From contig CACVBU010000271.1 in NCBI GenBank assembly GCA_902728285.1, forward strand, positions 1,133,371-1,197,370: DNA of 64,000 nt. The letters run 5' to 3'. Numbering within the stretch: the stretch's first letter is position 1; every line of letters begins with the position of its first letter. A program made the position numbers and the translations under genes. The stretch comes from Clytia hemisphaerica. Taxonomy: Eukaryota; Cnidaria; Hydrozoa; Leptothecata; Clytiidae. Positions 17,613 to 64,000 of this stretch are shown one piece after another. A model generated the notes under the pieces. The model made no database searches. It was not told the DNA's origin and saw only the letters and a program-made list of their open reading frames with translations.

Positions 17613-17643
17613 AGTTCGGAATGCTCGGATTCTTCTCTTGCAG

Positions 17644-38123: not shown

Positions 38124-38328
38124 TAACGAGGTGACAGGTGAAGAATGGTGGCTCTGAGGCGTGAAGAATTTAAGAATACACTCTTTTTATAAGCATAACG
38201 TTTATAAGCCTACTTAGGTTCAAATTCGGTAAAAAAAAAGCATAACGCTAAGTATCTAAACATATATTATATATAAAGCTGAAAATGAGATTTTTCTTTG
38301 TCAAGAAAATGACAGGTAGACTACTGCG

Positions 38329-39797
38329 GGGGGGGTTTTCAGGGGTCTTAAATACCGTCATACCGACAAAATTTTGGGTCAAATACCGTAATACCGTCGG
38401 TGAAGGAAGCCTAATACCGATACCGATATTATATTTATGTTTTTTTCGAAAATAATGAATTTTTCAGTTATCAAATCTATTGTGTAGTAACAAATTAGAA
38501 ACTGTACAAACAAGTCTTGTACTTTATGAGGCCCCCCAGTCAACCCTCAATTCAGGTATTCACGCACAAATTTTTGCCAATTCACGTATTCACGCGCGAA
38601 AAAAAACCATTCACATTCACGCTCCAATTTTGCTTTTACATCTTTGGTTAAACGATTGTGACCTTATTGGGCTAAATTTAACCTTTTTATGGTCTCTTTT
38701 AAACAGATTGACCTATTATTATACCAAACATTTTCGCCACTATATAAAGCTTTTGCTTTTTTGACCTTATTCTCGATATCGTCGACTTTTTAAGACCTCT
38801 TTTACAGCTATTTGAGCTTTCATGAAGCAATATTTTAGGTCTACCACGCCAAAATTACTTGCTTTGTTACGGGAGGCAAATGCAAAATTAAGCCTTTCCC
38901 CCAATAATTTCTTCCTCGCAGACCCGTAAGATGTCTTTTATATTGAGAATAAATTTAAAATCGAGGTTTGGGCCAATCATGGTATGAGAAGCCGTAGACT
39001 TCAACACAGGCTTCATAGAGGTGGTGCTGTGGTGCAATTAGAGGACGCGAATTCTAAAGTTTAACCCCCCCCCCTATCGGAGGAAAGAAAATAAATGGAA
39101 AATAAGAACGCGAGCGAAGCGAGCGCGAAAAATAATTCGACAATTTTCACTCTCCTTTGTTATTGAAAAACGGCCTTAATACGCTATTGTTAGCCAAGTA
39201 TGCCTTGTTTGGTCACACAATTTTTGATTTTATTTAACACTGACCTTTGTTGGCGAAAATATGGTACGGCGAGCGACGTACCTGCCTTACCCGGTGCGGC
39301 GTTCCAAGAGTTTCGCCCAAGAAAAAATTTAAAATTTAGAATGCCTAGATTGCCTGAAAACGCATCATGTGCATCATGATGTGAATTTTTTTGATCGTTC
39401 GATGCTGCATAAGATGTTTTTAGAACTACCTACTTTTACTAATTATTGAAGGAGTAAATACCACTTTTACTGTCTCTAAGTTACTGCAGTATCAGTGTAT
39501 TGTATTGTAGTAGCAATATAAGTGAATACAGAGAGACGAACATATCATTTAGTGCTGACGGAGAAAATTTTATCTAGACTCATAAAACTCATGAAGAAAC
39601 TAAAAGGTAAATAGTTTTATACCGAAATACCGTTTTTTATTGATAAAAATATCGAAATACCGACAAAAAAACAGGCAATATACCGATACCGGTAGAAAAT
39701 GAAATACCGTAATCCCGTCGTTTTTTTCTCGTAATACCGATTTACCGGGTGTAAAAAGGCCCAATACCGTCATACCGTAAAAGTGAAACCCCCCCCC
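38329..39797. mobile_element. 1.47-kb G-capped ATACCG element, copy 2
   Basis: Same family and orientation as copy 1, about 95% alike by eye, with small internal deletions (for example 180 bp missing against 37690-37920). CTACTGC is repeated at both borders and differs from copy 1's duplication. This is therefore a separate insertion only 205 bp away and not a segmental duplication. Confidence 0.8.
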
Positions 39798-39899
39798 TAC
39801 TGCCTTTCGCGTGGAAGAAACACGTGTATCTCCTTCAAAACTTTTAAAGTTATGTAATGCTCTGTTCATATAAAAATGAAAATAATAAAACTAGCCATA

Positions 39900-40760
39900 G
39901 CTTTCACTAACTGCCTCCCGCTAGTACAAATGCTTGTAAAAACTAATTAATGCTAATTAAGGCTTTTTAATGCTTTAAAGCAAAAGTTTGGAAATGATTT
40001 GGAATAGTTAGAATGATTCTTCTCAACAGCATTTTCTTTGAGATATCAATGAATAATAAGCTAACATAAATGAAACATATTTTTTTTCTAAAAATGTGAA
40101 TTACTTTTTACAAAGAATAAAATACGAATCTTAAAACATTCATTAGGAAAAGTGTCCAGGTAGAATCAATTGCAGATACTTAACCAGTCAAAAGACATGC
40201 AACTATATTTATTTCAACCAATTTGAAATATAAAAGAAACATAGTAGAACCAAACAGCATAAGAAATGCTATGAGCCAGAAACATAACGAGCAGGAACCA
40301 AAAATTGACAGGTAACAACGTACTTAGGAGTTTTTCCAACGGTTTAACAAAGGATATCATGATCCAAAATTGTTTACATTAAATGGATTTACCAGTAATC
40401 TAGAAGCTGTAACAGCGTCGTGTAAAGGATGGAAGATGATAGGACGTAACGTGGTAATATCGTAATATGGTATCAGTAACGAGGCAATATTGATGAGCAG
40501 GAAGCAGGTATTAACAGGAAATAGCGTACATTCAGGACTTTTTCCTACGGCATGATAAGGGATCTCACGGACAAAATTGTTTACATTAGAAAGATATGCC
40601 AGTTATCTTGCAGTTGTAACAGCAATATCGTGTAGAAGGATGGAAACTCATGACGTAACGTGGTAATAATAGCAGTAACGAGGTAATATTGCGTTGTCAA
40701 GGTAAACGAATCCTCATTCATAAAAAGCTTAAAGGAAAAATAAGAAACATGAAATTAGAT
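39900..40760. repeat. Two ~225-bp tandem copies with GTAACG words
   Basis: Blocks at about 40310-40500 and 40540-40700 share AAAATTGTTTACATTA, GGATGGAA, GACGTAACGTGGTAAT and AGTAACGAGG. No gene was recognised in this stretch. Confidence 0.6.
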
Positions 40761-41090
40761 GATATATGGTGAGTGTACTGAAATTTCCTCAAAAATTATA
40801 GTTCACAAAAGTTTCTTTCAATCTTTGATAATAATTTCCCAAATAGTGCCTGGTAAGTATCAACAAGAACACAGGTTAAACATAAAAGACTAATAAAACC
40901 TAGTCTTATAAAAGTACACAAAGAAAAAATATTTACGTACTTACTGTCGAAGTACCATAACACAGGATTTTTAAGCATTCTTGTTGGGAGAAGAGTATGT
41001 TGAATGACGATTGTCGAATAAATTTAGTTACAGTGGAATTTCGTTGCCAATTCAACCACAAACAACAATCACTTTTGTCCATATTCAATA

Positions 41091-41818
41091 GACCTTTTCG
41101 CTTTTCCGTCCGCCATCTTGAATTGAATGCAAAAATACAGGAACGAAAATGCCGTGGTTGGATTTAGTTGGAATGTATGCAAAACATATGCAAGTTTACA
41201 CAAAGATTAAAAAGACAACAAAGCATCTTATAAATAAATATTATAATCATTAAAACAATAAAAGATGGAATTTCTTAATCCAAAAGGAAATATTTACAGA
41301 ACAATAAAAGCCTTTTAGGAATTTGTTCTTAAAGACATTGCATATTCTGTTTTCATGTCATTAAAAAATTCCACGAAGACGGAGTACACACATCAAACTT
41401 TCAAAACACGCAAACTGAAAGCAGTAATTATGACGTCACACTTTATCAATGTTTTGATTTGATCATTTGGCGGCTCTATTCCCAGGAGAATAATTTGCCG
41501 TCAGCCGAATAAGGATTGTTTTTTACCTTCGCGGGTGATTTTTCAGTTTGAGTTTCTGTCTAATGTTATGGTCTTTTGAAGTGCTTGTTCTAAGAGATGA
41601 GTGAATATAATTGTTTTTAGTTTTCAAGAGAAGCAAATTTAATCTTTCTTCTACAAGATTACACTTTAATATAATGCCAATTATGCATGTAAGTTTTTAT
41701 TTAATACTTTCTTTTTGCATATGTTTTGCATACTTTCTAAGGGAATTTCACCACGGCAATTCGGCCACCATAATTTTTGCATACAATTCAATATGGCGGA
41801 TGGAAAGGCGAAAAGGTC
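41091..41818. mobile_element. TA-flanked 0.73-kb element with ~70-bp TIRs containing CCGCCATCTTG
   Basis: GACCTTTTCGCTTTTCCGTC then CCGCCATCTTGAATTGAATG returns inverted at 41750-41818 with a few mismatches. TA lies at both borders (41089-41090, 41819-41820). Each TIR carries a YY1-like CCGCCAT(C/A)TTG. No transposase was found. Confidence 0.75.
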
Positions 41819-42187
41819 TAATATCATTTTAATCATTGTTCACATTATTGGGGACAAACTGTCTGGGTCGAAAAATGAATCAATCTGAATGTCTAAGACA
41901 GGAGACAGATTTTAATTTGACTGTCAGCAAATTCACTGATTGGTATATATATGAATATATCTTGTTTAATCCCATTCCCAAAGTCAAAAGTAAATGCGTA
42001 TAAGTATTTTGACTGCAGGAGGAGAGAGATTGAATTTAAAAAACTTCCAGAAACTTCTGTATTCCATTTCGTGCATGTTGACCAATCGGGCAAAATTCTA
42101 CAAGCGGATTAGAATCTACTGTCGAAAGCTGAGTAAAATGCCCGCGGCGCCTGCTATTAAAAAGAAAAAGTTTTTAGGCTAGCAACT

Positions 42188-42347
42188 GCCGTCCCGGAAA
42201 AAAGCCGAACATTTACGGAAGAGACTAACTACGGGTAGGCTTGTGCGACAAAACAAACAAACAAACGCGCAACAAAATTTCGAGATTCCAGTCCAATATC
42301 TAAGCTTGAAGCTATGAGTGCCTCCTCACTCGCTGCGCTCGTTGCGG
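42188..42347 (+). repeat. Dispersed SINE-like repeat, copy 2
   Basis: Matches 35526-35682 in the same orientation and is followed by a short AATAATAATAAAA tail, as a retroposed short element would be. Confidence 0.6.
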
Positions 42348-42654
42348 GGGTAATAATAATAAAAGTACTACTATTTTCATATCTCTAAAACAGCTCTCTT
42401 GGAGCATTTAATGTTTTCATTGCATGACAATCTATATCCGTTTGCACCGCCAGCATTGTTGGTGTATACACCTCATATTTTGTGATAATGCCATTATTTA
42501 CATAATTTAAGTGTCATTACATAAAATAACCTTGAAAATGCTTTCCCACTAATTTTGAGGTAGTCCATATTGGGGTCCACAATGGGGTCCATATTGGGGG
42601 GGGGGTCCAAGTTGTGTCATCTTCTCCCCCAAGCTTTACCGAAATTTCGGTAAA

Positions 42655-42955
42655 AATTCGGACGAGCACGCCGAAATTTGGATGGTACGCCAAAATTTGG
42701 ATGGCACGCCAAAATTCGGATGGCACGCCAAAATTCGTATGGCACGCCGAAATTCGGATGGCACGCCAAAATTCGGATGGCACGCCGAAGTTTTAATGGC
42801 ACGCCAAATTTGGATGGCACGTTGGCACGTTGGCACGCCATGGCACGTTGGCACGCTGGCACGTTGGCACGCCATGACACGTTAGCACGCATGGCACGTA
42901 GGAACGCTGGCACGCATAGCACGCTGGCACGCGTGGCACGCGATTTAGCAGACTC
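42655..42955 (-). repeat. Right minisatellite arm of the 7.3-kb foldback
   Basis: 19-bp GGCACGCCAAAATTCGGAT units, then 8-13-bp GGCACGTT-type units, ending CGCGATTTAGCAGACTC. This is the inverse of the left arm at 35692-36018. Confidence 0.9.
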
Positions 42956-45723: not shown

Positions 45724-46644
45724 TTCTCTCAATAACCAATTTCTGTTATTAGATTATATAATATGGAAAACTATTTTCTTTATCTCACTAAATCCGTCCT
45801 TAATAAATGATCATAGGGAAAGTACTGTCTGTACTTTACCTACCTCGTTTAAAAATTGATGAGAAAAGCAATTTTATTGTTTATTCAAGTCTCATGTTGC
45901 TTAAGAGAAATGAATCAGTTATATACATATTTTATAAGAATGCTTGGAAATAACATATTGATTTCAGTTCGGCAAATTGCACAGATCCGCAACGCTGCGA
46001 AATTCTGCATCTTTAGCGTTGTGATATTCCGCGACGTTGCGAAATTCCGCAGCTTTACTGTTGCATAATTTCGCAGCTCTGGCCTTTGGACCAAAATCGG
46101 ACCGGGGTTCCAAAATAATGTGCATTTTGAAGAACAACCCAAAAGGAAACTTTTCACCCTAGTATTTTAATTTCCTACCTAGCGATTATTCACAATCACT
46201 CTTGGAAGAAATGCTACTTCGTTCAAAAAAGCGTTACTTTGTTCAAGAAAACAAGTTTTTGCCTGATTTTGCATGCGTTTAGAAGAAAATTGGTAGGCGC
46301 TCATAATTTTTAAAATCACAAGCTTCAATCTGAAGCGTTGCGTAAAATAGCAGGGCAACCCTGGGGAAACGCTGCGAAAAACCGCAACGTTGCGGAATAT
46401 TGCAACGTTGTGGATCTATTCAATTTGCTGAACTGATTTAGAAAAGTTAAAACCAAAGGGGCTTCCCCTCAAAATTCTCTTCTGAGACTTTGACTATTAT
46501 GGACGAAACTTACGCCACCCAGAACTTCCCGAGAAAGAAAGTTTTGCTTCTCATTAAAAGGAAATTTTCTTGTAATTAAAATTTGAGTTGGGTGCTCTTA
46601 TAATGAAACGAAAACTTTTTTTTCAAATGTCATCAATATTTTTA

Positions 46645-46774
46645 TTCAAAGTAATTGGCCAACACGTCTTTGAAGAAAAAGATCTTGGAATCCTCATTGA
46701 CTCAGAACTTACATTTGAAGAACACATTGCAAAGCAAGTCAAAAAAGCAAACGCGATACTTGGCATAATCAATC
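46645..46774 (+). pseudogene. CR1-like LINE reverse transcriptase fragment, left part (interrupted)
   Basis: The open frame carries EEKDLGILIDSELTFEEH...AKQVKKANAILGIIN, the late RT region of CR1/L2-type LINEs. It is 5'-truncated at about 46645 and breaks off at codon ATC-AAT (46768-46773), where a TIR element begins. The frame resumes at 62759 (same element) with CGA-GGA-TTT, in register. Confidence 0.85.
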
Positions 46775-48171
46775 AAAGACTTATAACCAAAACAAGACGT
46801 CTAAGCGCATAATTATGCAAAATTATCTTATTGTTCGAACAATAAAAATAAATTTCCTTTGATCCGCACGTTAGTTGCCGACAAGATTCAAAAAAATGGC
46901 CGCCAAAACTCGAAGGCCACCAAATTTGGAACTACAGCACCTGACCCCGAGAATGTAGTAAACCCCGAGAATGTAGGTTTCTCATTTTTTAGCATGGTAG
47001 CCCTAACGATAGTTCAACTTCATAAAAAGTTGTTTCAGAGCATACTATTACATATTACTGATTATTTCTAGACAAAAAATTCTAACTTGAATTGATTTTT
47101 TCAGGCGAAAATCTGAATCGAAGTTGATTGGATACTACTCGAATTGAGACATTTTTTGAATAAATCCTCTCTAAATCGAAATCTATTGGAATTAAGTTAT
47201 GATGATAGGGTATTTTCTTATTCCTAATGAACTAAGGAAATGTGGAAAATAGTCCATTTGAATATTTCTTGTTCTAAGTTAGATATTTTAACGAAAATGT
47301 TTGACCTACCTTTTGGGGTTAGTTGACCTACAATTTGGGAGCCTTCATAACCCGACATAAAAAGTCTGTCAAATTAAATAAACTTCTTTTGTTGTATTTT
47401 CATAACATGAAAGTATTACCTGAGAGATAATTAATGTTGGCATTTTAAGCTTTTACGACGTGTCCCAGACCCGCTGGGACCCCAGCCCAATCAGAAAATT
47501 TGCCTAAGTTTGGAACAATAGAATTTCTATCCCCATTGGGAATTTAGTATAAATTTTTTGACCCGATGTGGGAAAAGTTCCACCGGGGCTGTGAGGCAGG
47601 GGTGTTGATAAATTATTCACATATTTTAACCCAGAATCTTCAACCTACAAAATAAAAACAACTTTCTTGTCTCTTCTTTTCGTCCTTTCTTTTACTTTTC
47701 ATCATTTGTAGCACGATAAAAGTAATATCTTTGTTAATTTTTTGTCTGAGTATATTTCTAAAGTATGAATTTCACTTAGAGAACAAAAATTTCCGATGAA
47801 TACTGAAATTTCGCTCTCAGCAACCGAATCTTTTCACCTACATTCTGGGGGTTAAAAAGCGAAAAAATCCAATTTTCAGAATAACAAAAGCTCTTTAGAA
47901 TATTGTTTTGGCATCAAATATTTCTAAAATTTTCTGTTATAATTAATTCAATCGAAAAAATATCAACATTTTACTATTACTAGATTTAAAGCCATAAAAC
48001 CAAACCTACATTCTGGGGGTTATAATGAAAATGGGAGTCAACTTCAAGGACCAAAAAAATTAGCCTATCTATCAAAAGTAATGAAAGTAACCCCTGGGAA
48101 AGGATTTTGGGAGTTCAAAATTTCGTTTTAAACATTCAATATTTTTTTAAATGCAAATCTACATCTCTCAG

Positions 48172-48320
48172 CGTTGTTACTAAAAGAGGTAACGAGTGGT
48201 AACGAGTGGTAACGATGTGGTAACGAGTGGTAACGAGGTGGTAACGAGGTGGTAACGAGTGGTAACGAGTGGTAACGATGTGGTAACGATGTGGTAACGA
48301 GGTAACGAGTGGTAACCAGT
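48172..48320 (+). repeat. Left GGTAACGAGT(G) satellite at the foldback terminus
   Basis: About a dozen GGTAACGAGTGGTAACGATG-type units of 10-13 bp just inside the terminus. The inverse block is at 58563-58700. Confidence 0.9.
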
Positions 48321-48354
48321 TGAAAACGGTGGCCCTAAGTCTCCAAATTTGAAT

Positions 48355-50090
48355 TTCTCGATTCTGGTGGTTTTGCAACAGATGCTGATGGCTCTTGAGG
48401 TTCTGCAGCAGGACCTGGCAGATCTGGTGAATGTGCAGTAGGAATTGGAGATTTAGGCGTATGTTATAGTGGAGTTGATGGATCTGGTGAATGTGATGGT
48501 AAAGTTGGTTGTTTGGGTGAATGAAATGGTGGAATTGATGGTTCTGGTGAATGTGAATCAAATATTGATGGTTCTGGAGGTTCTGTATCAGGAGTTGGCA
48601 ATTCTGGTGAATGCAATGGTGGAGTTGGTGGTTCTGGTGAATGTGCAGCAGGAGTTGGTGGTTCTGGTGAATGTGCAGCAGGAGTTGGTGGTTCTGGTGA
48701 ATGCATTGGTGGAGTTGGTGGTTCTGGTAAATGTACAGCAGGAGTTGGTGGTTCTGGTGAATGTACAGCAGGAGTTCGTGGTTCTGGTGAATGTACAGCA
48801 GGAGTTGGTGCTTCTGGTGAATGTGCAGCAGGAGTTGGTGGTTCTGATGAATCCAATGGTGGAGTTGGTGATTTTGGTGAATGTGCATCAGGAGTCGATG
48901 CTTCTGGTGAATGTACAGCAGGAGTTGGTGGTTCTGGTGAATGTACAGCAGGAGATTGTGGTTCTGGTGAAGGCAATGGCGGAGTTGGTGGTTCTGGTGA
49001 ATGTACAGCAGGAGTTGGTGGTTCTGGTGAATGTACAGCAGGAGTTGGTGCTTCTGGTGAATGTACAGCAGGAGTTGGTGGTTCTAGTGAATGTTCAGCA
49101 GGAGTTGGTGGTTCTGGTGAATGCAATGGTGGAGTTGGTGGTTTTGGTGAATGTGCAGCAGGAGTTGGTAGTTCTGGTGAATGTGCAGCAGGAGTTGGTG
49201 GTTCTGGTGAATGCAATGGTGGAGTTGGTGGTTCTGGTGAATGTGCAGCAGGAGTTGGTAGTTCTGGTGAATGTGCAGCAGGAGTTGGTGGTTCTGGTGA
49301 ATGCAATGGTGGAGTTGGTGGTTCTGGTGAATGTGCAGCAGGAGTTGGTGGTTCTGATAAATCCAATGGTGGAGTTGGTGATTTTGGTGAATGTGCATCA
49401 GGAGTCGATGCTTCTGGTGAATGTACAGCAGGAGTTGGTAGTTTTGGTGAATGTACAGCAGGAGTTGGTGGTTCTGGTGAATGTACAGCAGGAGTGGGTG
49501 ATTCTGGTGAATGCCCAGCAGGAGTTGGTGGTTCTGGTGAATGCAATGGTGGAGTTGGTGGTTCTGGTGAATGTTCAGCAGGAGTTGGTGGTTCTGGTGA
49601 ATGCAATGGTGGAGTTGGTGATTCTGGTGAATGCGCAGCAGGAGTTGGTGGTTCTGGTGAATGCAATGGTGGAGTTGGTGGTTCTGGTGAATGTGCATTA
49701 GGAGTTGGTGGTTCTGATGAATGCAATGGTGGAGTTGGTTGTTCTGGTGAATGTACAGCAGGAGTTGGTGGTTCTGGTGAATGTACAGCAGGAGTTGGTG
49801 ATTCTGGTGAATGTACAGCAGGAGTTGGTGGTTTTGGTGAATGTACAGCAGGAGTTGGTGGTTCTGGTGAATGTACAGCAGGAGTTGGTGGTTCTGGTGA
49901 ATGCAATGGTGGAGTTGGTGGTTCTGGTGAATGTGCATTAGGAGTTGGTGGTTCTGGTGAATGTGCAGCAGGAGTTGATGGTTCTGGTGAATGGGATGGT
50001 GGAATTGATGGTTCTGGTGAATGTGATGGTGGAGTTGATGGTTCTGGTGAATGTGATGGTGGAGTTCATATTCTGATAAATTGTTATTGA
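48355..50090 (-). repeat. Left 30-bp satellite arm, minus-strand (PEPPTPAVHS)n frame
   Basis: About 57 units of GGTTCTGGTGAATG...GGAGTTGGT, 30 bp each, with three alternating unit types. On the minus strand an open frame of 480 codons reads PEPPTPAVHS-type repeats and ends in a non-repetitive tail (PEPSIFDSHSPEPS...PDPSTPL). The same tail ends the right arm. Because 30 is divisible by 3, other frames are open too, so coding is unproven. Confidence 0.85.
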
Positions 50091-51002
50091 GATGTTATTC
50101 ATGTAATGAAAATACATTTATGGTGAATCTGATATTTTTTGCTAGTTAATGAACGCTCAATTTGAAACTATCTAGATTAAATGAGCTCTAATTGAGATTA
50201 CATAACGATTATAAGTACTGTTCAACGCTTTGCGTGAAGTTGCGTTTTTTAACATCATTCGACTTTATTTAAAACATTCTTTAAACCAACTACAGCGTTT
50301 TGATTAGATGTTTGAATACAATGACAAAAAATTTTAACACAAGTAAAATATCTTTCAGGTTTCTTTTTAAACAAAATATTCTTCATCGTTTGGAACAAAA
50401 TATAAAAATATAGCATATCTTTGAGAGAATTACCGCAATATTCAATTTTGAAATGAAATTTTCTATCAATAAAAATCGAAATTTGCAAAGCTAGAATTCG
50501 AGGAAACTTTTATCTCCCAAAAATAACATAGTTAAGAAAACTTCAGAAGATCAACCATATTTTATCGTATAAAATACCTAACAAAATAAATATGTATAAA
50601 AAAAGGCCACAGCCTCGTGAACATTTTTTGAAGGGAAGGAACAACAATGACTTAACCATATCGTACTTGAATTTCGGAGAATTTCAATTATCAGTTAATC
50701 ATATTTTTCATGTTTCCATGTAAACTAAATATAAAATTTTATTCAAAAGCCATCTTTCAGTAACTAGGAAAAGGGAATATGAAGAGTACGGTAGAGATGG
50801 AATAATTATTTCAAATAAACTGAATAAAAAGTTTATCCAAAAGAATATTGGGTCACTGCGATTTGAAATTCTCATATCCTCTAAAAGAACTCTTAATGAA
50901 CACACCTAATGACTCAGAAGAAAAATGTTGAAACAAGAAGAAACATCAAAGTAAAAACAATACCAACGAAAGCTTTAAAAAAATCTAAAAAAGTTTAATG
51001 TT

Positions 51003-54000
51003 TCAAATGTCGATTCCTGACTGTTGCAACGAGGGCTTCCAAGTTTCCGGTATGTTATTGCGCGTACGCTCAGGAACAATAACCTTCTCAAATTCAAAGT
51101 TTGAGTCAAACTGTTTAAGACATTTTGTCAAGTAATGTAGATAGATGTTTCCCTCTGTGGAAACGGGTTCGCCATTGGAATTTCTGTATTGATCCCGCTC
51201 TCCGAAGGTTTTTATGACGAACACATCTTTGTCCGCAAATGAACCCTTACAATTTTGACATCTTGTGACTTGTTTCGGGCAAAGCTTGTGATCGCTTCTC
51301 AGCACCAAGGTGAATTGGGTTTGAAGGGTTCTTCCAGGATCAAGGAATGACATGTCTCTTGGCTCTTGATTTTCGGTGCACTAGGGAAAGAGATAATTTA
51401 TTACATCTTATTACGATCGAGCTTCTAAATTTTGCCTGAGTGATTCTAAGGCTTAAACATGCATTTCTATCCAAAAAGATTAGTTAGAATAACTCAATTA
51501 AATCACTTAAGGCAACACGCTTGACGTCTTCGCCTTGAACCTAGAAATATAACTGTAAAGAATTACCTGCCATGCTGGTTCGTCATTATTTGCAGTCTTC
51601 TGGATTTTCAATCGCTTCAAAGGTGCTACATTTTGCGTGACAAAAACTTCAGGCTCTTTATCTGATCTGCGTTTCTTTTTTTTTGATTTTGGCTTTTTAC
51701 CAGCATTTGTTGGCTTTTCAAACGCAAAGGGCTCCGCTGAACACCGCATGAACTTTTCAAAATAAGCATCTCGTTTTTCCTGATTCCAACTGACCCATCT
51801 TGCTGGAGGCACATACAAATGCTCGTACTCAAGTGCTAGTCGATAGGTTCCAATTCCCCTGATAGCTCGTCTTGCCTCTTGGAAGTAGCATTTGGTCCAT
51901 TCATTGAGAGTTTCTGTCACTTTTATCATTTGCTTTGGTATTTGTTCTTCTTTCAACACCTGAATCAAAATACAATTTTTTCAAAGAAAATTTGATTATG
52001 CGGCTAGTGCCTAGCGACAAAAATTAAACTCGAGGGTAAAAGGTTTAGTGGATCAAAAATCGAAATACCGAAACCATATTTGACTCAATGTTTCTTTAAA
52101 AAATAATTGATTGAAGCCTCGAGTTTCCTAGAAGGGTTTAATAAGGAATGTCGTGTACACATTTTTTTTATATCATAAGCAACTCCAATTTTGCGCTCAT
52201 GAATGGAGTTGCTAATTTTATCAAGATTGCAGCCTAAAAGTCGTTATGGATTTTGAACCAAAAATACTCAGCTCGTATAGCAACTATATAAACTTCCCTT
52301 GGCAGCTCATCGGTTGCTTAAAACTTATAAAAGAATGTGCGATATAATTTGGTAAATGAATGACATAGGAAAATCACCAAGCTTTGGAAAAATTATTTTT
52401 GATACCTTTTTTTCGATGCGATGTTGATTTTCCAAGGCGTTGGTCGTAAATCTTTTTTCAATACCATGCTTTCGTCTTGCGTCCATTACCAGACATTCGT
52501 TGAATTTTGGTACACGGTTTTTCTTGAACCAGTCAAAAAAACCAGGTGCGAGCCTTTCCCAGATCGGTTTCAAGCTTTCCAGTTTTGCAGAAAGATCGTC
52601 TTCGTCACTAGCATCAGCAAGGCCCTCTCGGAGAACAACATCTTGTTGACTCCCATATATGTCTGCCATTATCCTGTCTCGATCTTCCAACCTCTTGCAT
52701 TTTAATCGAAGCTGTTCAGCATCATTGTCTTGGAAATGTTTTGTGCACCATAAGCTTTCAGATGCCCGAAAGATATCTTTGACACCTGAAGTAAGGGTAG
52801 CATTAACAAAAATTACTTTTCCTAGTAAAATATGTATCCTGTTGCCCCTGCCCGTCTGATGCAAATAGAAAGATACCGGGTGTGTCAAAAAAACGCCCCT
52901 ATTTTACAATCTTCGAAATCCGCGAAAATTAATCCCATTTAAGTATTCTTCTATTTCGGAGAAGAAATTGCACATCAATCGAAACATTACGGGTACGATC
53001 CTTGAATGTACATCCATTTCTCCTCTCTCCCATACCTCTTTTTTCTTAATCCTACTTCTTCGTATTTTCATTCTTCTGTTTCTTCCCCCCTCTTTCTCGT
53101 GTACACTAAGTAAAACAGAACTAACCTTTTGCAATGGCTTTATCTAAATCATGTCCAATTTTATTGATTTCCAGAAGCTCAGGCTTAGCGAAGGCAAGCT
53201 CTGCTGCAAATCGTCGGTACGTTTCTTGGTCTTTTCGGAAGTGCCAAAACGATGGTCCAGGAAATTGTGGGTGTTTCTTGCTGTCTCTTGCATTGACCAA
53301 AGCCAGATTTGGGTAGCTTGTGTCAGTTAAAAAAAGGTTTTCACAAACATCGAATGTAGTATCGATCGACAAAATAGCTTGATTGTCAACACAAAAACGT
53401 TTCATGTCTGACAGTTGGTAGTCTAAATAGTTGATGACACCATACTCCTTTTTAGTTAAAAAGAATGATTTTGAAAAGCTGTCAGATTTTTTAATGTAGG
53501 TAACCATTGTTTCCGCTTCAGTCAAATTACCTCCTTCTGCTTCCTTGTTCTTGGCCACACCTACTGCCCGTCTATTGTCAATGACTTTAGGGTTCTTTAT
53601 AGTCTCCGAAAGACTGTTGGGTTCTTCAGCGGCCATCTTACGATATATTTGGTTGGTTGAGCGACCTTCATCTATTTCAACATCGATCCTGTTACTAATA
53701 GATGGATCGTGCCGATAATAGAGTGGCGCCTCTGAATGTTTTGCATTACCGTGCCTCGGCATGAGAAATCTTTCTTCTTCGTCATCATGTATGTTCTCAC
53801 ACTCAGAATTTCTGTAAGTAACTAGATAGTAAGGATGGTAGATTGTTTTGAGGTTATGTTTCACCTGAGTTATGACGTGTGAGAGAGTTGGATTACTTTT
53901 ATTTTTACGGTAACTCCTTTTAATTTCATACACGTCCATTCTAGCCACACGTTTTTCTTCAGTTGTACCTTCATCTGACTTTTCTTTCAGAAAAAAATAA

Positions 54001-54506
54001 TTTTGAGTTTTGTTATGGTGCACTTGCTTTGCTTTGCTGGTTTTTGATGTGATTCCATTTTCCCAGAGATAAAACTTTTTCGGGTTTCCCTTGCTCACAT
54101 AAGCTCCATTGTCATCTGCTTTAGCTGAGGCGATTGAAATTTTTTGGCTATCAAGTGTAAATACTGCATTGTCTCGAATCTTTACAGGTTTTTCTAATCT
54201 TTCCAATTTCTGGGGATTATTATATAATGTTTTTAATATCTTGGTAGCACTCCATTCTACTGTTGCCTCGTCATTTTCATCTTCAATGTCGCTCGTAACT
54301 TCAGTCTTCAACAAATAAGAATAGTCGGGGTTGGTGTTTATCATATCATTTACAGGTGGTGGGTTTGTATTTACAGGTGGCGGGTTTGTATTTACAGGTG
54401 GCGGGTTTGTATTTACAGGTGGCAGGTTTGTATTTACAGGTGGTGGATTTGTATTTACAGGTGTTGTGATTGTTTGGAGGTATTCAGTTTCATCATCACT
54501 GCTGTC
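51003..54506 (-). CDS. MULE-like DDE transposase, four exons, 5' end not found
   Basis: Minus-strand exons 54506-53126, 52785-52406, 51959-51567 and 51380-51003 have GT-AG borders. The 2,532 nt close to 843 aa plus stop. Exon 1 opens with an acidic stretch and five PPVNTNP repeats (21-bp units), then a basic N-terminal region with the block RFLMPRHGNAKHSE. The RNase-H-like core follows: ILSIDTTFD (first Asp), IGHDLDKAI (second Asp, across the first intron to KGVKDIF), the MULE-type CxxH in LWCTKHFQD, and a late TNALENQHR block with candidate acidic residues. The tail has a basic nuclear-localisation-like run (KKPKSKKKKRRS) and a CQNC motif. Expected role: cut and paste of the surrounding foldback element. 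An upstream first exon is expected since exon 1 starts at an acceptor. Family placement is by motif only. Confidence 0.8.
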
Positions 54507-54509
54507 CTG

Positions 54510-57240
54510 AAAAAGGAGAAAAATCCACGTTCTTATTTTTGTTTAACTCTTTGTCCAACAGCAGGAACGATTAAACATATGTTGTGCGTAGATGTAATTT
54601 TTGGGCAAATATGTACCTTATCGGCCCTTTTTACGCCGGCCCTAATTTAACACTGGCCTCTTTTACGCTGGCCCTTATTACGCCACAACCTGATTTTGGG
54701 CTTACGCCAATTAGGGCCGTAAATAAGGCGAAAATTTGCTAGAATGGCTATGTATGTTTCAATTTACATTTATCATTTTTCAGTAGTAAACTGTTGGAAA
54801 TTCCATTGAAAATCACGGATTTTTGCGAAGTTTTAGATATGGAGTAAAACAATGGATAATTTTTTATCTTCGAATCATACCCAAAATCCTTTTATAAAGT
54901 TTTGAGTATTAGTTCTTGAGATATTTAACTTTTTAAAATTATGACGTCATTAAACTCAAATTCTGCTGAGAAAGAATTTAAGTTACACCGAATACGGTAT
55001 TCTACATCCAAATACGCTTCCAAAAATGTATACTTTGTTATGGTTTAGGGATTGGAACTGGGGCGGAAAAATTAATGCATTTTTGGGACTTGCATTAAGT
55101 TACCCGAGCAATTTATCTTAACTGTTCGTTATAATTTCTTGAGTTAATGACTATTTTAAGTTTTGAACAAGCCAGTCATTCAATAACTTGAATAATAAGT
55201 TGTAAGTGATCATAGTGAAACTAAAAATTGTTTCACTGGACACGGCTAAAATTAGTACACTCTCAATTAGTACTCTTGCTTCCCCAAAATCCCCCCCCCC
55301 CCACTAATTAAATTCGAATGATTTGTTTATTTATTACAGTGTATATAGACCTTAAACTTTCTCATTTTACGTGTTCATTTGTTAAAGTTTCTTTTTTGTT
55401 GTTGAAATTGGTATCAGTTAAAAAGAATTCGGTCTTCAAATTACCCCCCGTCCTCTTATTCCATTTCCCCCCGCTTATTAGAATTTAGAAAATTTTCCTA
55501 CCCCCTGCTTATTCAACACATATACATGTTTTTTCATAAGCATACAAAAATCTGAAAACAGGCTCAGAGATGCTTAGGTCGAAAGCTTAATAAGGCTGAG
55601 AAATGCTTAAGGGAATGCTTAAATCTAAAGCATAAATTTAGGGAAATACTGAAAATCCGTGAAATTCCAGCCAAAAAAAGCTAAAATCAGGAAAAAGATA
55701 TTTTTTGTAGGTTCAAGCAATACTTGCCATATGCTTAATTTTTCCCCATATCAGAGCCTAGATATGCTTATAAGTGCAATGCTTATAAAAAAACATGTAT
55801 TTTTCCAGTAAGAAAATTTTGGGAAACAAAAAACAGAACAAAATCACTTTTTTTCCAGGATCAATTTGTATAAAACACATGCATTTTTCCAGGAGCCTGA
55901 ATTTCCTCATGGAATAGATATTTTTTCAAGGAGCTAAAATTTTCTCATCGAACAGATGTACTTTTCCAGGAAACAAAAGTCAAAATAACAGATGGTTCAT
56001 TCCAGCCCTGGGAACGCTTCTGAACAGTTATTTTGTGTTTTCTAGCCGCTGGCTGCTCTTAGGAAACGTCAACTACCCTATAGTTGTTTCATCCCCTTTC
56101 ATCGTGTAAACATAAAAATTCACGCATCTAGATCTAATTTGAAGAAACACAAGATTAATTCACTCTTTAATATTTGAAAATCAATTACCCACGATGGTTA
56201 CTTCTTAAGAAACGGGACAAGCTGGAGTTTTTACAAGCTCTTATTTGATTTGGTTGGTCGTTAACATGTAATAAAAACAATTTTATTACTTTTACTAAAG
56301 AACGCGTCATTTCCATTATTTCATGTGACCAATTAGTGAAGTAACTTATAAAAACTCCAGCTCATCTCTAAGAAACAGCCTGCTGAGCAAAACGTAGGTT
56401 CTTAGAATGAAGAAAGACGTGTATTCTTCGGTTATTGAGTCAGTGTATACTATGATAGATAGTAATGTAAGACTCGAAAAATCATTTCCAAACATTCATA
56501 ATAACGATAACGATACTTACAATCAAAATAGTTTCGACATCCATCTTTCTTCTTCAGTTGTTAAAAAGTGTATGAAGTGTGTCGTGTGTTTTTTGTTATA
56601 CTTTCTTTTTCTTTGATTTACTCGAAAATTTTAGGCGCGCTCTCCTCCGTATTGTGTTTTCCTTCCTTCATTCATTCATTCATTTTATACATAAAATACG
56701 CCAATACGAAGAAAACAAATATAGTTATTCAAAGAAGTCGTTCTATTCTTTTAAATAATTAATGATTTTTTCTTCAAGTTAAAAAAAAAGGATGCTTCGA
56801 TGATTTGCACATTACATTTACAATTATACACCTCAGAACACCCCTTAATTTATGCTCCAGTGGAAGAAATAAACACAGTGCATTCAAATTCAAAACTTTA
56901 GAAGCCACTGTGTTGGGTTAAATTGTTTTTTTTCTAGATAGGTCAGAAACTTTTTTTGCTTTTTCGTCATTATTTGAGAATTTATTTGCTTTACCACTGG
57001 GATTGGGATTGAAACAACATCCAATTTTTCAATGGTTTGACCATTTTGCCAAATGACGTCAATCAAATGGGACTTTGTTTTAGGAATATTTCCACTAGAG
57101 TGGGCGATGTGAAAGATTCTTGGTCAAATGGACAAAAGCGTATAAGATAACAAAGAGGTCATGCAGCGTCAGATAGTTTTCGGAAAATTAACAAGGGGGC
57201 GTTTATTTGGAACCTAAGAGTAAGCTCAAAGTCTTCAATT
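54510..57240. other. Central non-coding part of the foldback, 5' of the transposase
   Basis: It should hold the transposase promoter and first exon, but none was identified. It contains a TA-flanked MITE (55523-55799), a C-rich MITE-like relic (about 55255-55520), a small inverted pair around CTGGAGTTTTTA (about 56200-56375) and TTACGCC-rich repeats at 54620-54740. A 69-codon plus-strand frame at 56407-56616 has no recognisable domain. Confidence 0.45.
55523..55799. mobile_element. TA-flanked MITE, TACACGTTTTTT family, copy 5 (diverged)
   Basis: TA-CATGTTTTTTCATAAGCAT faces TGCTTATAAAAAAACATG-TA. The interior has repeated GCTTAA/TGCTTA words. It is inserted in the foldback's central region. 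Confidence 0.65.
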
Positions 57241-58530
57241 AATAATGTACATTTACCAGAACCATTAACTTCACCATCACATTCTCCAGAACCATTAACT
57301 CCACCATTGCATTCACCAGATTCATCAACTCCTAATGCACATTCACCAGAATAATCAACTCCACCATCACATTCACCGTCCCCACCATCCCCACCATTGC
57401 ATTCACGAGAATGACCATCCCCGCCATTGCATTCACCAGATCCATCAACATCAGCATTATATTCACCAGAATCATCAACTCCACTATCCCATTCACCAGA
57501 ACCACCAACTCCTGCTGTACATTCACCAGAACCACCAACTCCTGCTGTACATTCACCAGAACCACCAACTCCACCATTGCCTTCACCAAAACCACCAACT
57601 TCTGCTGCATTTTCACCAGAACCACCAACTCCACCATTGCCTTCGCCAGAACCACCAACTCCTGCTGTACATTCACCAGAACCACCAACTCCTGCTGTAC
57701 ATTCACCAGAACCACCAACTCCACCATTGCCTTCACCAGAACCACCAATTCCTGCTGCGCATTCACCAGAACCACCAACTCCTGCTGTACAATCACCAGA
57801 ACCACCAACTCCTGCTGTACATTCACCAAAATCACCAACTCCACCATTGGATTCATCAGAACCACCAAATCCTGCTGCACATTCACCAGAACCACCAACT
57901 CCACCATTGCATTCACCAGAACCACCAACTCCTGCTGCACATTCACCAGAATCACCAACTCCTGCTTTACATTCACCAGAACCACCAACTCCTGCTGTAC
58001 ATTCACCAGAATCGCCAACTCCTGCTTTACATTCACCAGAACCACCAACTCCTGCTGTACATTCACCAGAACCACCAACTCCTGCTGTACATTCACCAGA
58101 ACCACCAACTCCTGCTGTACATTCACCAGAACCACCAACTCCACCATTGCCTTCACCAGAACCACCAACTCCTGCTGCACATTCACCAGAACCACCAACT
58201 CTACCATTGCATTCACCAGAACCACCAACTCCTGCTGCACATTCACCAGAATCACCAACTCCTGATGCACAGTCCCCAGAATCGCCAACTCCTGATGCAG
58301 AACCTCCAGAACCATCAATCTTTGATTCACATTCACCAGAACCATCAATTCCACCATTTCATTCACCCAAACAACCAACTTTACCATCACATTCACCAGA
58401 TCCATCAACTCCACTATAACATACGCCTAAATCTCCAATTCTTACTGCACATTCACCAGATCTGCCAGGTCCTGCTGCAGAACCTCAAGAGCCATCAGCA
58501 TCTGTTGCAAAACCACCAGAATCGAGAAAT
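57240..58530 (+). repeat. Right 30-bp satellite arm, plus-strand (PEPPTPAVHS)n frame
   Basis: About 43 inverse copies of the left-arm unit (CACCAGAACCACCAACTCC...). The plus-strand frame 57427-58419 encodes the same PEPPTPAVHS repeat and ends with the same tail as the left arm. The unit number and order differ from the left arm, so the arms have changed independently. Confidence 0.85.
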
Positions 58531-58562
58531 TCAAATTTGGAGACTTAGGGCCACCGTTTTCA

Positions 58563-58700
58563 ACTGGTTACCACTCGTTACCTCGTTACCACATCGTTAC
58601 CACTCGTTACCACCTCGTTACCACCTCGTTACCACTCGTTACCACATCGTTACCACTCGTTACCACTCGTTACCACTCGTTACCTCTTTTAGTAACAACG
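58563..58700 (-). repeat. Right GTTACCACTC satellite at the foldback terminus
   Basis: Inverse of 48172-48320: CGTTACCACTCGTTACCACA-type units ending in CCTCTTTTAGTAACAACG. Confidence 0.9.
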
Positions 58701-58709
58701 ATCTCTCAG

Positions 58710-60616
58710 GTCTGATTCAAATTTCACCTACATTCTCGGGGTCAGGTGCTGTACTTGTCCATGTAATTTTGCTAATTATGGTCTAATTATCATGAAATAT
58801 GTCAACAAATTGGATTGGTTTGATTTTAGAATAATTATTCTTTCCATTTCTGCTCTTTGAACCTTGAACTTTGGCCAGAAGGAAGGAATTTCGCAAAAAC
58901 AAGATGGCTGACTGGTTTCTGAGTATTTGCTATAATGACCCAAAGAATGGCTTTGAAATACTATGTTAGAGAATTTTTTGATGATTAAAAATAATTTTCT
59001 AGCATTGTAATATGACCAAACTTTAAGTCCATACCATTCTTTTTTGTGGCCTGGCTCTTTTCAGACTGGCCTGGCTCAATGTTTTTGTGCTATTTTTTGT
59101 GAACTGTCAGACTGTGTTTTGTTGGAAATTAAGGTTTTCAGTTAGTTTACCTGGCTTTATGTTTGTTCAGATGAAAAGTATTCGGTTTAATATCGCTCAT
59201 TTGATTTCGATATAACTTTTTTCAATTTATTTAGGTGTAAAATATAATATAAAAAAACATCAAAATAATCAACCATAAATTCTCTGTATATATCCTGCTC
59301 CTTGAAAAGGCATTTCAAAAACAGATGGGCGACTTCAAATCAAGGATATCTTCAACAAACAAGATGTATTGTGATTAGAATTGAAATATATACATCTAAC
59401 ACCCAATGCTGAAAAATATTTTGTCGCAATGATGGTTTTTGAGTCATAACTTTAATTTTGGCTATTTTATTATAACACCGAATCAATTTGTCACTGGATG
59501 GATTCTTTGGATATCTTGATATATGTGGCTTGGCTGGTATAGTTTATGGCTGGTAGACTTGGTAGATTAGAATTATCAACAGCGATGATGAAAAGATTGC
59601 TCTACTAACACTAACAATATTTGGAATATCTTAAAATTTGGATAATGTATTGTTCACACTGTCACTAGAGACTAGCTCACAGCAGGCTACAAACTGAAAT
59701 TGTGAGGGTTATTGCATCAGTATATATATGAAAATATTTGATACCCCAACGGTGAAATTGTGATGTATGTCATTTGTAGAAAGTGGACTAAAATATACAA
59801 TTGATTATGCCTGGGTCATTGACTAAATAAGCGCCATCTGCCATCTCATGGACAGAATCTGAGATTTACAAAAATAACGTACATTCAATTGGCTAAAAAT
59901 GGAAAGAGTATTGAAAGCTTGGATATTACTTTTAAAACAGTGTGCCAGATTTTTAATTTGGCAAGACTGGTTTCTGGCAAATGAAAAAAGTATTGCTTGT
60001 AGATAATCTTGAACAAATTTATATAGATGAATTCTTTGGCTAGGTAATTTTAACAAATTATAGAAAGGAAACAGAAGCAAACTATATAAATTAATCAGTC
60101 AGTCATCATAATGAAATTAATTTTGACACGTAATTTTGGAGGTAGTTCTTAATATTGTGAAATGCTCTGACTGTTAATACCAAAATTATTTGTTTGTGTA
60201 ACTATTTTAATGTAGCGTTGAGCGTAAGGGACTTATTGTCTATACTTTGTCATCTAAGTATCATTTTCAATCGTCAATTAATCCTCAGAAAAAATTAAAT
60301 CAGGTCATCTATTTTCAAAAGAATTGCCTATTTTTGTCTACTATTGTATTGTGTATTTGAAAATTGTTTTTTGTTTGTTTCTCAGTATTACCAAACAATA
60401 AATTAATGATTTTGTATTTTTTGATTAGATTGTGTTATGCCAGTTAACTAGGGTCCTGGTTAAAGATATGTTACATGCATGAGTTACTTTGTTCATTTGT
60501 GTCCAGACATTTTTTTTAAAAATCTCCAGACTGATAGTTGTTAACAAAAATTACAAGTATTTTTGTGATTTTGGTCATGATTGGAAATGGTTGACAAATT
60601 CTGAAAATTTTCAAAT
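58710..60616. other. Non-coding interior of the outer TIR element
   Basis: AT-rich sequence with no supported exon. CCTACATTCTCGGGGTCAGG (58729-58748) matches inverse words near the left end of the outer element (about 46945). Confidence 0.45.
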
Positions 60617-60947
60617 ACCTTGAGGGAACCTTTTCTGGTGGGAACTAATTTTGGCAGGAACTAATTTTGGCAGGCAGCAAATATCCTAAATTTTTTTAAT
60701 TTTGGTCGGAACTTATTTTGGCGAATAGTGAATTTTTTTAATTTTGGCAAATGACAGCGTAAATCTCTTCTATTTTGCCTTATTTTGAGCAATTTTGATG
60801 AATTTCAGGGTTATTTAGGCAAGGAAACAAAAAATTTAATTTTGGCGGGAACTTATTTTGGCGAGTGAGCAATATATTTAATTTTGGCAGGAACGAACTT
60901 TGGCGAATTTCGCCTAAATTCCCAAAATTAGTTCCCTTAAAGGTACT
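60617..60947. repeat. TTGGCGG-rich inverted-repeat element, copy 3
   Basis: CCTTGAGGGAACCTTTTCTG at the left faces AATTAGTTCCCTTAAAGG at the right. The interior has many AATTTTGGCGGGAACT words. Same family as 2277-2578 and 19927-20217. Confidence 0.6.
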
Positions 60948-61343
60948 TATTTTCTAAATAGGAAGTGATGAGTCAAAACAATCCCATCATTTTTCATTAA
61001 ATTTTTCACATTTTTATGGTATATACTGTGATTTTTATCAAAAGGTGTCATAAAAAAGTGAAATGATCAAACAGGCATTAAAAATAACAGGAGACTTGTT
61101 AAAATTTTATGCCAGAATCTCCTCAAAAGTTTGGATCAAAATATTGAAAATTGAGTGAAAAAAAATTCTTTAATTTTTCAATTCAATTATCAGTCTTTGA
61201 CCCAAACATTGATTCTATCTTTTCAAAACAATATGATTAACAAAAATTTTTAGAATAAAAAAAACTTATACACTGGGCAGTATCTTTGTTTAAAAGAAAT
61301 TTAAAACTTTTAATAAAATAAGGTCCATAAAAGGCTCTAACTA

Positions 61344-61438
61344 CTCTTGGGTACCTAAATAAATGGGGGTTTGGAATAAGCCAGATAGGAGAATTTAATT
61401 ATTAGCGGGGGAGGGGAAGCTTATTAGGTACCCAAAAG
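61344..61438. mobile_element. TA-inserting MITE, diverged copy of 14476-14633
   Basis: TA-CTCTTGGGTACCTAAAT then a G-run faces TTATTAGGTACCCAAAAG-TA. Same end sequence as 14476-14633 with substitutions and a shorter interior. Confidence 0.75.
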
Positions 61439-61972
61439 TACAGTTTTATATCGTAGATATAGTTTTAGTAAAATAGAGTTTAAAAAATGTTTGTATGTCA
61501 TTCAAGTCCATCGTAAAATATCACGATTCCCTCTAGTTGAGTGTCTACTACCATGATTATTATTTCTTCATTCCAATATCGATATTAACACATATAGGTA
61601 TATTAAAATAGTCAATCAACATCTTGTATATATGTACTATGTCATTCAAAATACCAAAAATATTCTCAAGTTTCCAATCAATTTAATTGAATGTCAAGAG
61701 TATGAATTCAATAAGATTGGGTTAATCATTCCACCATTTATGAAATCAGCCTTTTTAGAGTTTCATATATCTGCAAGTTTTGCAAACACCAAAGTTAAGT
61801 AGAAAAGTGATCAGCCATAATAAATGATAAACATTCACAACATATTAGTTCTTTAACTCGCTTTAACTCGTCTGTCTTTTGGTACTGTAGGCCAGGTCGT
61901 CCTCAAAAGTTTAAAAGTGTCCTAAAGTCTTTGAAGCACATCATTTGATCATCTTTGAGTACATCTTTCTGG

Positions 61973-62271
61973 CCCGGGGGGGGTACTACCCTTGTCGACC
62001 GACGGGGGTGCTCCGCCGAGGTTCGAAAAATGGACCCTACGTGGGACTCGAAATTTGCGAAAAAAGTGACCCTGAATGGGACTGAAATTCCAAAATTTTC
62101 TCAAATTTTCTACTTTTTCCCTAAATTTTCCAAAAATAGGCACCCTACGAGGGACTGATTTTTCTATTTTGGTGTTTTTGCGACCCTACCAGGGACTCGT
62201 AGAGGTTAAAAAAGGTACCCTGACCAGCGGAGCATCCCCGTAACCCATTTTGCCCTAGTACCCCCCCCGGG
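61973..62271. mobile_element. G-capped MITE with exact 8-bp duplication
   Basis: CCCGGGGGGGGGTACTA and its inverse bound the element, with partial TIR further in (GGGGTGCTCCGC/GCGGAGCATCCCC). CTTTCTGG is repeated exactly at 61965-61972 and 62272-62279. The interior repeats GACCCTACGTGGGACT-like words. No ORF of note. Confidence 0.88.
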
Positions 62272-62758
62272 CTTTCTGGTTTCCAATAGTTGTTGACGAT
62301 CAACTGTTAGATATGAATATAGAAGGCAGTTTTGATGTTGATATATCAGGCTGTCGGGTTTCCTTTAGCACTTGAGGAGAGGAGCCCATATCATAAAACT
62401 TCAATTTGTATCTTTCTGTTACGAAGATGATTTGATTGCCAGTAAAACATTTTCACATTCATTTAGATTAGAACGAAGTCAGAGTTTCTAATTTTCTAAT
62501 CAAAGTTTTTCTGCTTCAGCCATTTTGAAAATTTCGACGAAAATTCTGAGAAATTAGTAATATTGATTATTTTTGCTGACTCGGCAAAACAATTGTTTTT
62601 ATTGCTGACGCGGCAAAATTGATTGTTTTCGTTCACTAATTATGCGGAAACCCTGTAGATATAGTTTATTGTATTAGAAGAACAATAACACGCTATCTGA
62701 TGAGATCTAACTAAGGTGAAACAATGGTTAGACGTCTTGTTTTGGTTATAAGTCTTTG

Positions 62759-63293
62759 AATCAATCGAGGATTTGTAAATATGAGTACAAGTACATTTAA
62801 AACATTGTATTGTGCGTTTGTTCGCCCGCATCTGGAGTACGCTCAGTCAGTATGGTCTCCGTTTCTACGTAAACACGTAAATCTGATTGAAGGAGTACAA
62901 AGACGGGCAACAAAACTGGTTCAAAAATGTCGTGATATGTCTTATGAAGAACGATTGCGTGAATTAGATCTTCCTACGCTCGAGTTTAGAAGACACTTTT
63001 GTGACATGGTCCAACTTTACAAGCACATCAACTATTACGAAAAAGATATCATCCCAAACAAGATAGCCCGTCGAACGCGACCAAACAGAAGGCACAACTT
63101 TGAGATGATTCCAAACTTTGGAAGCGATGGACTCCGTGGTGTACAAACGAATTCCTTCTTTTATCGAACTATACCAACCTGGAATAAATTGCCAAAAGAT
63201 GTCGCTGAGGCAAAGACAGTCAAAGTCTTCAAAGAAAGACTCAACACTGCATGGAGTAAACACCCGAAAAGATTCAGCACAAAACAATTGTAA
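62759..63293 (+). pseudogene. CR1-like LINE reverse transcriptase, right part (C-terminal)
   Basis: The frame continues the fragment at 46645-46774. It starts INRGFVNMSTSTFKTLYC and runs through the hallmark VRPHLEYAQSVWSP, VQRRATKLV, SYEERLRELDLPTLEFRR and TWNKLPKDVAEA to a stop at 63291-63293. It is uninterrupted and ends in a 3' tail with (AAT)n, as expected of a recent 5'-truncated insertion. Confidence 0.9.
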
Positions 63294-63351
63294 AATACGT
63301 ATAATCACGATCAGTTCCAGAGGCCCTCGTGCGCCTAGAACTTTGTTACAT

Positions 63352-63386
<35 letters not shown>
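63352..63386. repeat. (AAT)n tail at the LINE 3' end
   Basis: About eleven AAT units immediately after the LINE 3' region. CR1/L2-type LINEs often end in simple repeats rather than poly-A. Confidence 0.85.
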
Positions 63387-63388
<2 letters not shown>

Positions 63389-63815
63389 CATTGATATAAT
63401 ATGTTCTAGCTATGATTCTTGCTTCTAGAGAAATTTTTCATCCTCTCAAACGAAATTGTACCCACGGTCTAATAAACATGTGTAGCAAGAGAGATATTCT
63501 AAATCGACTCATTCTTGTGCCAAAAATGCAAAGTTGCATGCATTTGAATACCTTTACTATCCCCCTCCCAACATTCTTTTCCTCTGTAGTTCATTCGGGA
63601 AAGATGTTTCAACCACGAGGGGAATATTTATCACGTGCTATTATAAGGGAATGCTGAATCATGACTTTTATCATTCATGAGACATGCTTGCTCATTCTCA
63701 TCTAAATTCTTTCTACTTTTATTAGATGTTGGCAAACGCTTGACAAATTAAAAAGTTTCGAAGAAAAAACCAAAAAGAAGATTTTTAAAATAGCACCAAA
63801 CACACAAAACGTAAG

Positions 63816-64000
63816 ATGGCTGGAAATCACGGTAAGCGAAAACGCACATTTTCTGAATGCGACGAAAAAGCCTCTCAACATATCCTGAACTTTATCGTAC
63901 AAGCGTTCAATGCTTTGAAGAATCGTAAACCGTTTTTAGAACGGGATTTCACCAAATCGACCATGGTACTTCCAGTGCAGTATAACAACCAAATTGTCAA
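63816..64000 (+). CDS. Start of an unidentified gene, 3' partial
   Basis: ATG at 63816 opens a frame that stays open to the window end (about 61 codons), beginning MAGNHGKRKRTFSECDEK with a basic nuclear-localisation-like KRKR, then a helical-looking segment (HILNFIVQAFNALKNRK). A GTAAGC at 63832 could be a donor, so the first exon might be much shorter. The region before the ATG reads like a 5' leader after a possible acceptor (TTTTATTAG at 63725). I do not recognise the family. Confidence 0.5.
   Translation, partial: MAGNHGKRKRTFSECDEKASQHILNFIVQAFNALKNRKPFLERDFTKSTMVLPVQYNNQIV

Follow-up and report, generated by a model that had tools for sequence, protein, structure and literature searches.

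Four nested layers of transposable elements in a hydrozoan genome, and P-type transposases with a RAG1-like N-terminal zinc domain

Cut-and-paste transposases cut their target with a stagger of typical length, and repair of the cut leaves target duplications. Foldback elements such as FB-NOF of Drosophila have long composite inverted repeats made of short tandem repeats, 9-bp duplications, a MULE-type transposase in some copies and many shorter copies. The same traits are found in the Tm1 Mutator/Foldback elements of root-knot nematodes, which serve here as comparison system (PMC3169594). Other reports describe 7-bp target duplications for Galileo, an element of the P superfamily (PMC2775673), a link between the Tetris foldback of Drosophila virilis and a satellite (PMC4079207) and nested long terminal repeat retrotransposons as common (PMC6911290). 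Here we describe a locus of Clytia hemisphaerica in which a long interspersed nuclear element (LINE) is split by an element with terminal inverted repeats (TIRs), itself the host of further elements. The locus lies in a stretch of 64,000 nucleotides, the window (contig CACVBU010000271.1, here C193:1133371-1197370), and each element was compared with relatives in the same 417-Mb assembly (951 contigs). The window very probably holds a nest of five insertions, four layers and a side insertion, with a later triplication of part of it. Transposon nesting itself is ordinary, and each family adds a new member to a kind already known.

The first layer is the interrupted LINE, present as two pieces:

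46660-46773, forward strand: 5' piece of the LINE, 5'-truncated, C-terminal part of the reverse-transcriptase frame
62766-63386, forward strand: 3' piece of the LINE, with a 177-amino acid open frame and a terminal (ATA)n run (array at 63353-63386)

The LINE codons halt at ATC-AAT (46773) and continue in register at CGA-GGA (62766), as a preliminary description of this DNA had stated. That description had proposed a search for uninterrupted copies and these do exist. Based on a search with the joined protein as query (best 150 of 4,210 candidates scored), the best relatives run unbroken from query residue 6 to 218 with 95-98% amino acid identity, crossing without a break residue 43, the window cut point, and some of their frames reach 1,033 amino acids. 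Because the alignment of these relatives begins at residue 6, which corresponds to base 46660, the 5' truncation is placed at about that base. In the same search the interrupted LINE came up three times on C193, always from residue 40, which corresponds to the tandem units described below. The LINE, putatively CR1-like according to the preliminary description, has a relative with 65% identity in locus L010 that gives an RVT_1 match (E 5.1e-13). Excision of both the TIR element and the foldback had been said to restore the LINE frame; the frame is indeed restored, but removal of the outer element alone suffices, as the inner inserts never touch it.

The second layer is the element that cuts the LINE:

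46774-62758, forward strand: layer-2 element, non-coding, with a P-superfamily-type partner, 3,859 bp long when the inserts are set aside
46767-46773, unstranded: left 7-bp target duplication AATCAAT
62759-62765, unstranded: right 7-bp target duplication AATCAAT

Its perfect 31-bp TIR was found where it had been described, as CAAAGACTTATAACCAAAACAAGACGTCTAA at 46774-46804 and as the complement at 62728-62758. The 15-bp end CAAAGACTTATAACC has 67 genomic matches (33 forward and 34 reverse) and a control search with the backward sequence gave 0. Twenty regions were fetched, of which 19 hold both ends of one span and one (L012) does not. An exact duplication of 7 bp (7/7 bases) borders the window element and 16 of these 19 other copies. 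The outer repeat had been taken for 8 bp; the eighth base is a coincidence, the left C being part of the TIR and the right C part of the LINE. The commonest copy size is ~3.8 kb. Among the frames listed for L011, none longer than 64 amino acids lies wholly within the element. Locus L015 (positions 1056-1102, on C261) is an extreme internal deletion: at 47 bp it keeps both ends, flanked by an exact 7-bp duplication, but has lost nearly its whole interior. The 7-bp duplications and the P-type partner transposase are shared with Galileo and other P-superfamily elements, whereas the layer-2 TIRs are short (31 bp) and those of Galileo-type elements long (PMC2775673).

The third layer had been overlooked:

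46935-58751, forward strand: Tc1/mariner-like element with TIRs, 1,279 bp without the foldback, between TA at 46933-46934 and TA at 58752-58753

The preliminary description had counted three layers, with a foldback cutting the TIR element directly. The extra 1.3 kb would then be native to the TIR element, and indeed no further end pair is obvious by eye and the flanks of the foldback are non-coding. However, the window element matches its layer-2 relatives only at 46774-46935 and from about 58752 on. Of the 19 copies, 13 read GGAACTACTTGTCC at the site with no insert and L014, L021 and L026 were unbroken with small differences, so that 16 of 19 are uninterrupted where the window reads GGAACTA, then CAGCACCTGACC...GGTCAGGTGCTG, then TACTTGTCC; the site was not shown in L015, L020 and L024. 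The 1.3 kb also has TIRs and TA flanks of its own, and its 24-bp TIR CAGCACCTGACCCCGAGAATGTAG marks 476 genomic ends (242 forward and 234 reverse, with up to 2 mismatches). A foldback lying directly in the TIR element is thus rejected on the unfilled sites and we give it practically no credence. Eight mariner loci (L042-L049) were sampled; three pairs are the same copy and L042 has one end only, which leaves four distinct two-ended copies. Over aligned bases their identity to the window copy is 92.4-96.2%; they have the same end points, and TA stands on both sides in all four as in the window. The window copy is non-coding, its longest stop-to-stop frame being 62 amino acids. The TA duplication, a TIR starting in CAG, a size of ~1.27 kb and many copies are as in non-autonomous Tc1/mariner elements; no transposase by which to place layer 3 in a Tc1/mariner family was seen.

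The fourth and innermost layer is the foldback:

48172-58700, reverse strand: foldback, 10,529 bp, that encodes a MULE-like transposase (minus strand)
48163-48171, unstranded: left 9-bp target duplication ATCTCTCAG
58701-58709, unstranded: right 9-bp target duplication ATCTCTCAG
48172-50060, unstranded: left arm, made of the end, a 10-bp array (48188-48320) and a 30-bp minisatellite (48423-50054)
57246-58700, unstranded: right arm, inverted, made of a 30-bp minisatellite (57248-58422), a 10-bp array (58563-58684) and the end
53126-54506, reverse strand: transposase exon with DTTF and GHDLDKA motifs, GT-AG borders
52406-52785, reverse strand: transposase exon with NALENQH motif, GT-AG borders
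51567-51959, reverse strand: transposase exon, GT-AG borders
51003-51380, reverse strand: last transposase exon, with the stop, GT-AG borders

Exact copies of ATCTCTCAG border the foldback, whose ends are CGTTGTTAC, just as previously noted. Its host is the mariner-like element and not the TIR element itself: the site is uninterrupted in all four distinct mariner copies, reading AAATCTACATCTCTCAGGTCTGATT in L049, which holds exactly ATCTCTCAG unduplicated, and ATCTTTCAG in the other three. The arms are identical at 257 of 258 aligned bases over the outer 270 bp, with 12 gap columns in each. The 25-bp end has 176 genomic matches (97 and 79, with up to 2 mismatches), and at least 26 inward-facing pairs were counted among the places listed, the shortest spanning 1.3 kb (C523) and the longest 21.9 kb (C250). 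A second copy on C12 (L037 and L038) has its own 9-bp duplication GCTGATCCA and the same end points, so that both foldback copies examined show a duplication of this size. The possibility that other copies of the elements end elsewhere had been raised, yet the examined copies of layers 2, 3 and 4 all share their end points. The end sequence and the repeat units (10 and 30 bp) differ from those of FB-NOF and Tm1. Long open frames in the arms (up to 533 amino acids) were considered as genes and rejected, since a stop-free 30-base repeat stays open mechanically and either strand has several frames open.

The four exons encode 843 amino acids of the foldback transposase, with an upstream exon or exons beyond these four; DTTF, GHDLDKA and NALENQH presumably hold the D, D and E that are catalytic in MULE transposases. 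No FLYWCH domain was found by Pfam in this protein, the first exon or exons being outside the protein scanned. Close relatives of the transposase occur on C250 (94% protein identity) and on C860 (98-99%, as two overlapping pieces in different frames). The longest DNA stretches that the window foldback has in common with these two are 98.8-99.3% identical, which suggests that the foldback was recently active. The 21.9-kb span on C250 (G000:C250:81257-103192) holds, besides the 94% relative, a P-type domain at 87946-88272 and is perhaps a further nest. On C248 (G000:C248:76597-101473) twelve foldback ends lie on the same strand, with 10 of 11 intervals of exactly 2,260 bases and one of 2,252; this satellite-like array apparently derives from the foldback, in likeness to the tie between Tetris and tandem arrays (PMC4079207).

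A side insertion and a triplication affect the right part of the nest:

61973-62271, unstranded: 299-bp element within layer 2, ends CCCGGGGGGGGTACTA, with the 8-bp duplication CTTTCTGG at 61965-61972 and 62272-62279
61889-64000, unstranded: start of a tandem triplication, units of 6.3-6.6 kb, continuing beyond the window to about C193:1214657

The preliminary description was right that the LINE is cut in frame by a TIR element and that the foldback is innermost, and it missed this 299-bp insertion. The 18-bp end of the element has 147 genomic matches (79 and 68). Its site is exactly unfilled in nine of the 19 layer-2 copies, present as a variant with no insert in five and not located by the search words in the other five. 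The tandem units, about 6.56, 6.57 and 6.27 kb, include the layer-2 right end and the LINE tail and are pairwise 99.87, 99.95 and 99.82% identical (2, 3 and 4 mismatches; 5, 0 and 5 gap openings). The 299-bp element is present in units A and B, while unit C reads CATCTTT-CGGG-CTTTCTGG, that is, four bases of the element and a shortened left duplication. Since these bases remain, unit C once carried the element, and the view that it had lacked it from the start was rejected. We infer from this sequence that an excision with imperfect repair, rather than another deletion, probably produced the footprint, and the loss is very recent because the units differ so little otherwise. The triplicated unit, seen in L012 and at C193:1195259-1214657, also holds beside the LINE tail a 525-amino acid frame with cysteine-rich stretches; this downstream frame is weakly OTU-protease-like (E 0.013, below cut-off).

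The target duplications of the nest measure 7 bp (layer 2), 2 bp (layer 3), 9 bp (layer 4) and 8 bp (299-bp element). In the proposed course of events, a LINE copy would have integrated in 5'-truncated form, and a non-coding P-superfamily-like element would have jumped into it by cut-and-paste, the cut being staggered by 7 bp. A non-coding mariner-like element would then have entered layer 2 at a TA, and the foldback with its MULE-like transposase gene would have entered the mariner copy with a 9-bp cut. In a separate step an 8-bp cut in the P-like element would have received the 299-bp element. Subsequently, a segment of 6.3-6.6 kb with the P-like end, the LINE tail and the downstream frames would have been tandemly triplicated, and the 299-bp element would have left one unit. 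Layers 1 to 4 are ordered by the fact that an inner element arrived after its host, and the order is secure because related copies show all three insertion sites unfilled. No order can be read between the 299-bp element and layers 3 and 4, as they occupy separate parts of layer 2. The triplication is younger than layer 2 and, given the footprint in unit C, younger than the 299-bp insertion as well. The exact borders and the readable order claimed at the outset are borne out by the duplications and unfilled sites. These and the borders are read directly, whereas the transposase that moved each piece is deduced.

Some observations weigh against this account. All the evidence comes from a single assembly, and the right part of the nest lies inside a triplication of 99.8-99.95% identity, where the assembler could err. 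L014, L020 and L024 (3 of the 19 layer-2 copies) show no exact 7-bp duplication, and L020, the copy that bears the transposase, has flanks that agree at 3 of 7 bases. Pfam MULE (PF10551) scores 13.7 bits on the foldback protein (E 0.087), below the cut-off of 27.6, and when each exon was scanned by itself Pfam found no MULE match with E of 0.1 or less. For the latter point, relatives of the protein on C628 (30% identity, E 2.2e-6) and C656 (28% identity, E 4.2e-8) overlap PF10551 matches above the cut-off, and the MULE-like assignment is indirect, drawn through these intermediate sequences.

An assembly or haplotype artefact, in which the LINE halves are unlinked or the tandem units are alleles laid end to end, would account for three nearly identical units that all have the joint of P-like end and LINE. 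The worry about duplicates of assembly had been voiced before and has some substance, the right TIR and the LINE tail occurring three times in tandem. However, the joints are exact at the element borders with target duplications, there is no N in C193:1190000-1228000 and the unit junctions are clean. Moreover, a search with the left flank (best 40 of 483 candidates scored) gave no second full-length match; the sole one is the window itself and the other 48 fall on an older repeat within 46000-46452. We therefore hold such an artefact to be very improbable. As to chance, random pairs of window positions gave abutting 7-mers at a rate of 0.000175 and abutting 9-mers at 0.000055, the 9-mer rate being raised by simple repeats; the window target duplications directly adjoin the exact ends of multi-copy elements.

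The partner of layer 2 deserves separate treatment. L020 has 9.0 kb between the same ends as layer 2 and codes for a P-superfamily transposase:

L020:6688-8790 (C435:736287-738389): P-superfamily transposase with a RAG1-like N-terminal zinc domain

At its two ends L020 aligns with the window element over 135 bp (94.8%) and 247 bp (84.2%), a likeness confined to the vicinity of the ends. Because L020 has no 7-bp duplication, its tie to the layer-2 family is made by these shared ends. With the discordant flanks and the confined likeness in view, the outer element could belong to another superfamily with 7-bp duplications and L020 be associated by chance. Against this stand the length of the end matches, P-type transposase matches at 1.9 kb (C327) and 6.7 kb (C781) from other 15-bp ends, and the 7-bp duplications of Galileo, and we deem the alternative unlikely. 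An L020-type transposase probably mobilised the layer-2 element in trans.

The usual N-terminal domain of the P superfamily is THAP. The 701-amino acid protein of L020 matches PF21787 (E 2.5e-24) and also PF12560, the RAG1 importin binding domain (29.2 bits against a cut-off of 23.3), and differs from other P-superfamily transposases in that Pfam finds no THAP domain in it. Residues 1-170 alone score 41.5 bits with PF12560 (E 1.6e-10) and match RAG1 chain 21wb with E 3.1e-4 over the whole stretch (0.0078 for the best single domain). Taken at full length, the protein has a match to the Drosophila P transposase (6p5a/6pe2) with E 1e-4, single stretches giving 16 and 0.11. Among the best 150 of 247 PF21787 candidates, 9 of 17 PF12560 matches are followed by a PF21787 match that begins less than 3 kb downstream on the same strand (C327, C861, C185, C394, C824, C435, C899, C926 and C366), and 8 of 17 have no such neighbour (C904, C735, C791, C640, C633, C26, C432 and C456). 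On C394, C824 and C435 both matches report the same frame length (642, 703 and 701 amino acids), as a single continuous frame would give. Most of these best 150 PF21787 matches have no PF12560 match nearby, and the fusion would thus be a minority branch, or else the domain of the others has diverged too far or lies on another exon. On C870 (G000:C870:32974-47261) six P-type domain matches of near-equal score are spaced by ~2.8 kb on one strand, likely a tandem array.

Among the titles and abstract beginnings listed in a literature search that covered few subscription papers, there was no report of a P-type transposase with this domain. N-RAG-TP of Aplysia is composed wholly of sequence like the RAG1 N-terminus (PMC8355894). 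We see an even chance that the probable layer-2 mover represents a branch of the P superfamily with a zinc domain homologous to the RAG1 N-terminus instead of THAP.

A second foldback in the window, at 35692-42955, has different ends, GAGTCTGCTAAATCGCGTGCC, and 8-bp and 19-bp arrays in inverted arms; its flanks are gcaaaaatg and gtaaaaatg (8 of 9 bases alike) and its 26-bp end has 110 genomic matches with up to 2 mismatches. Inverted arrays of a TCGAGTTAG-type repeat over ~1.7 kb, at about 15866-17613, may form a third foldback, a short one.

With its four layers, the nest makes a clean worked example: unfilled copies elsewhere in this genome prove three of the insertion sites. It also warns that reading by eye can overlook a layer. 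The RAG1-like domain on P-type transposases bears on the origin of the non-core part of RAG1. If its homology is true, P-type elements would be a second transposon lineage with this domain, from which the RAG1 N-terminus may have come or to which it may have passed.

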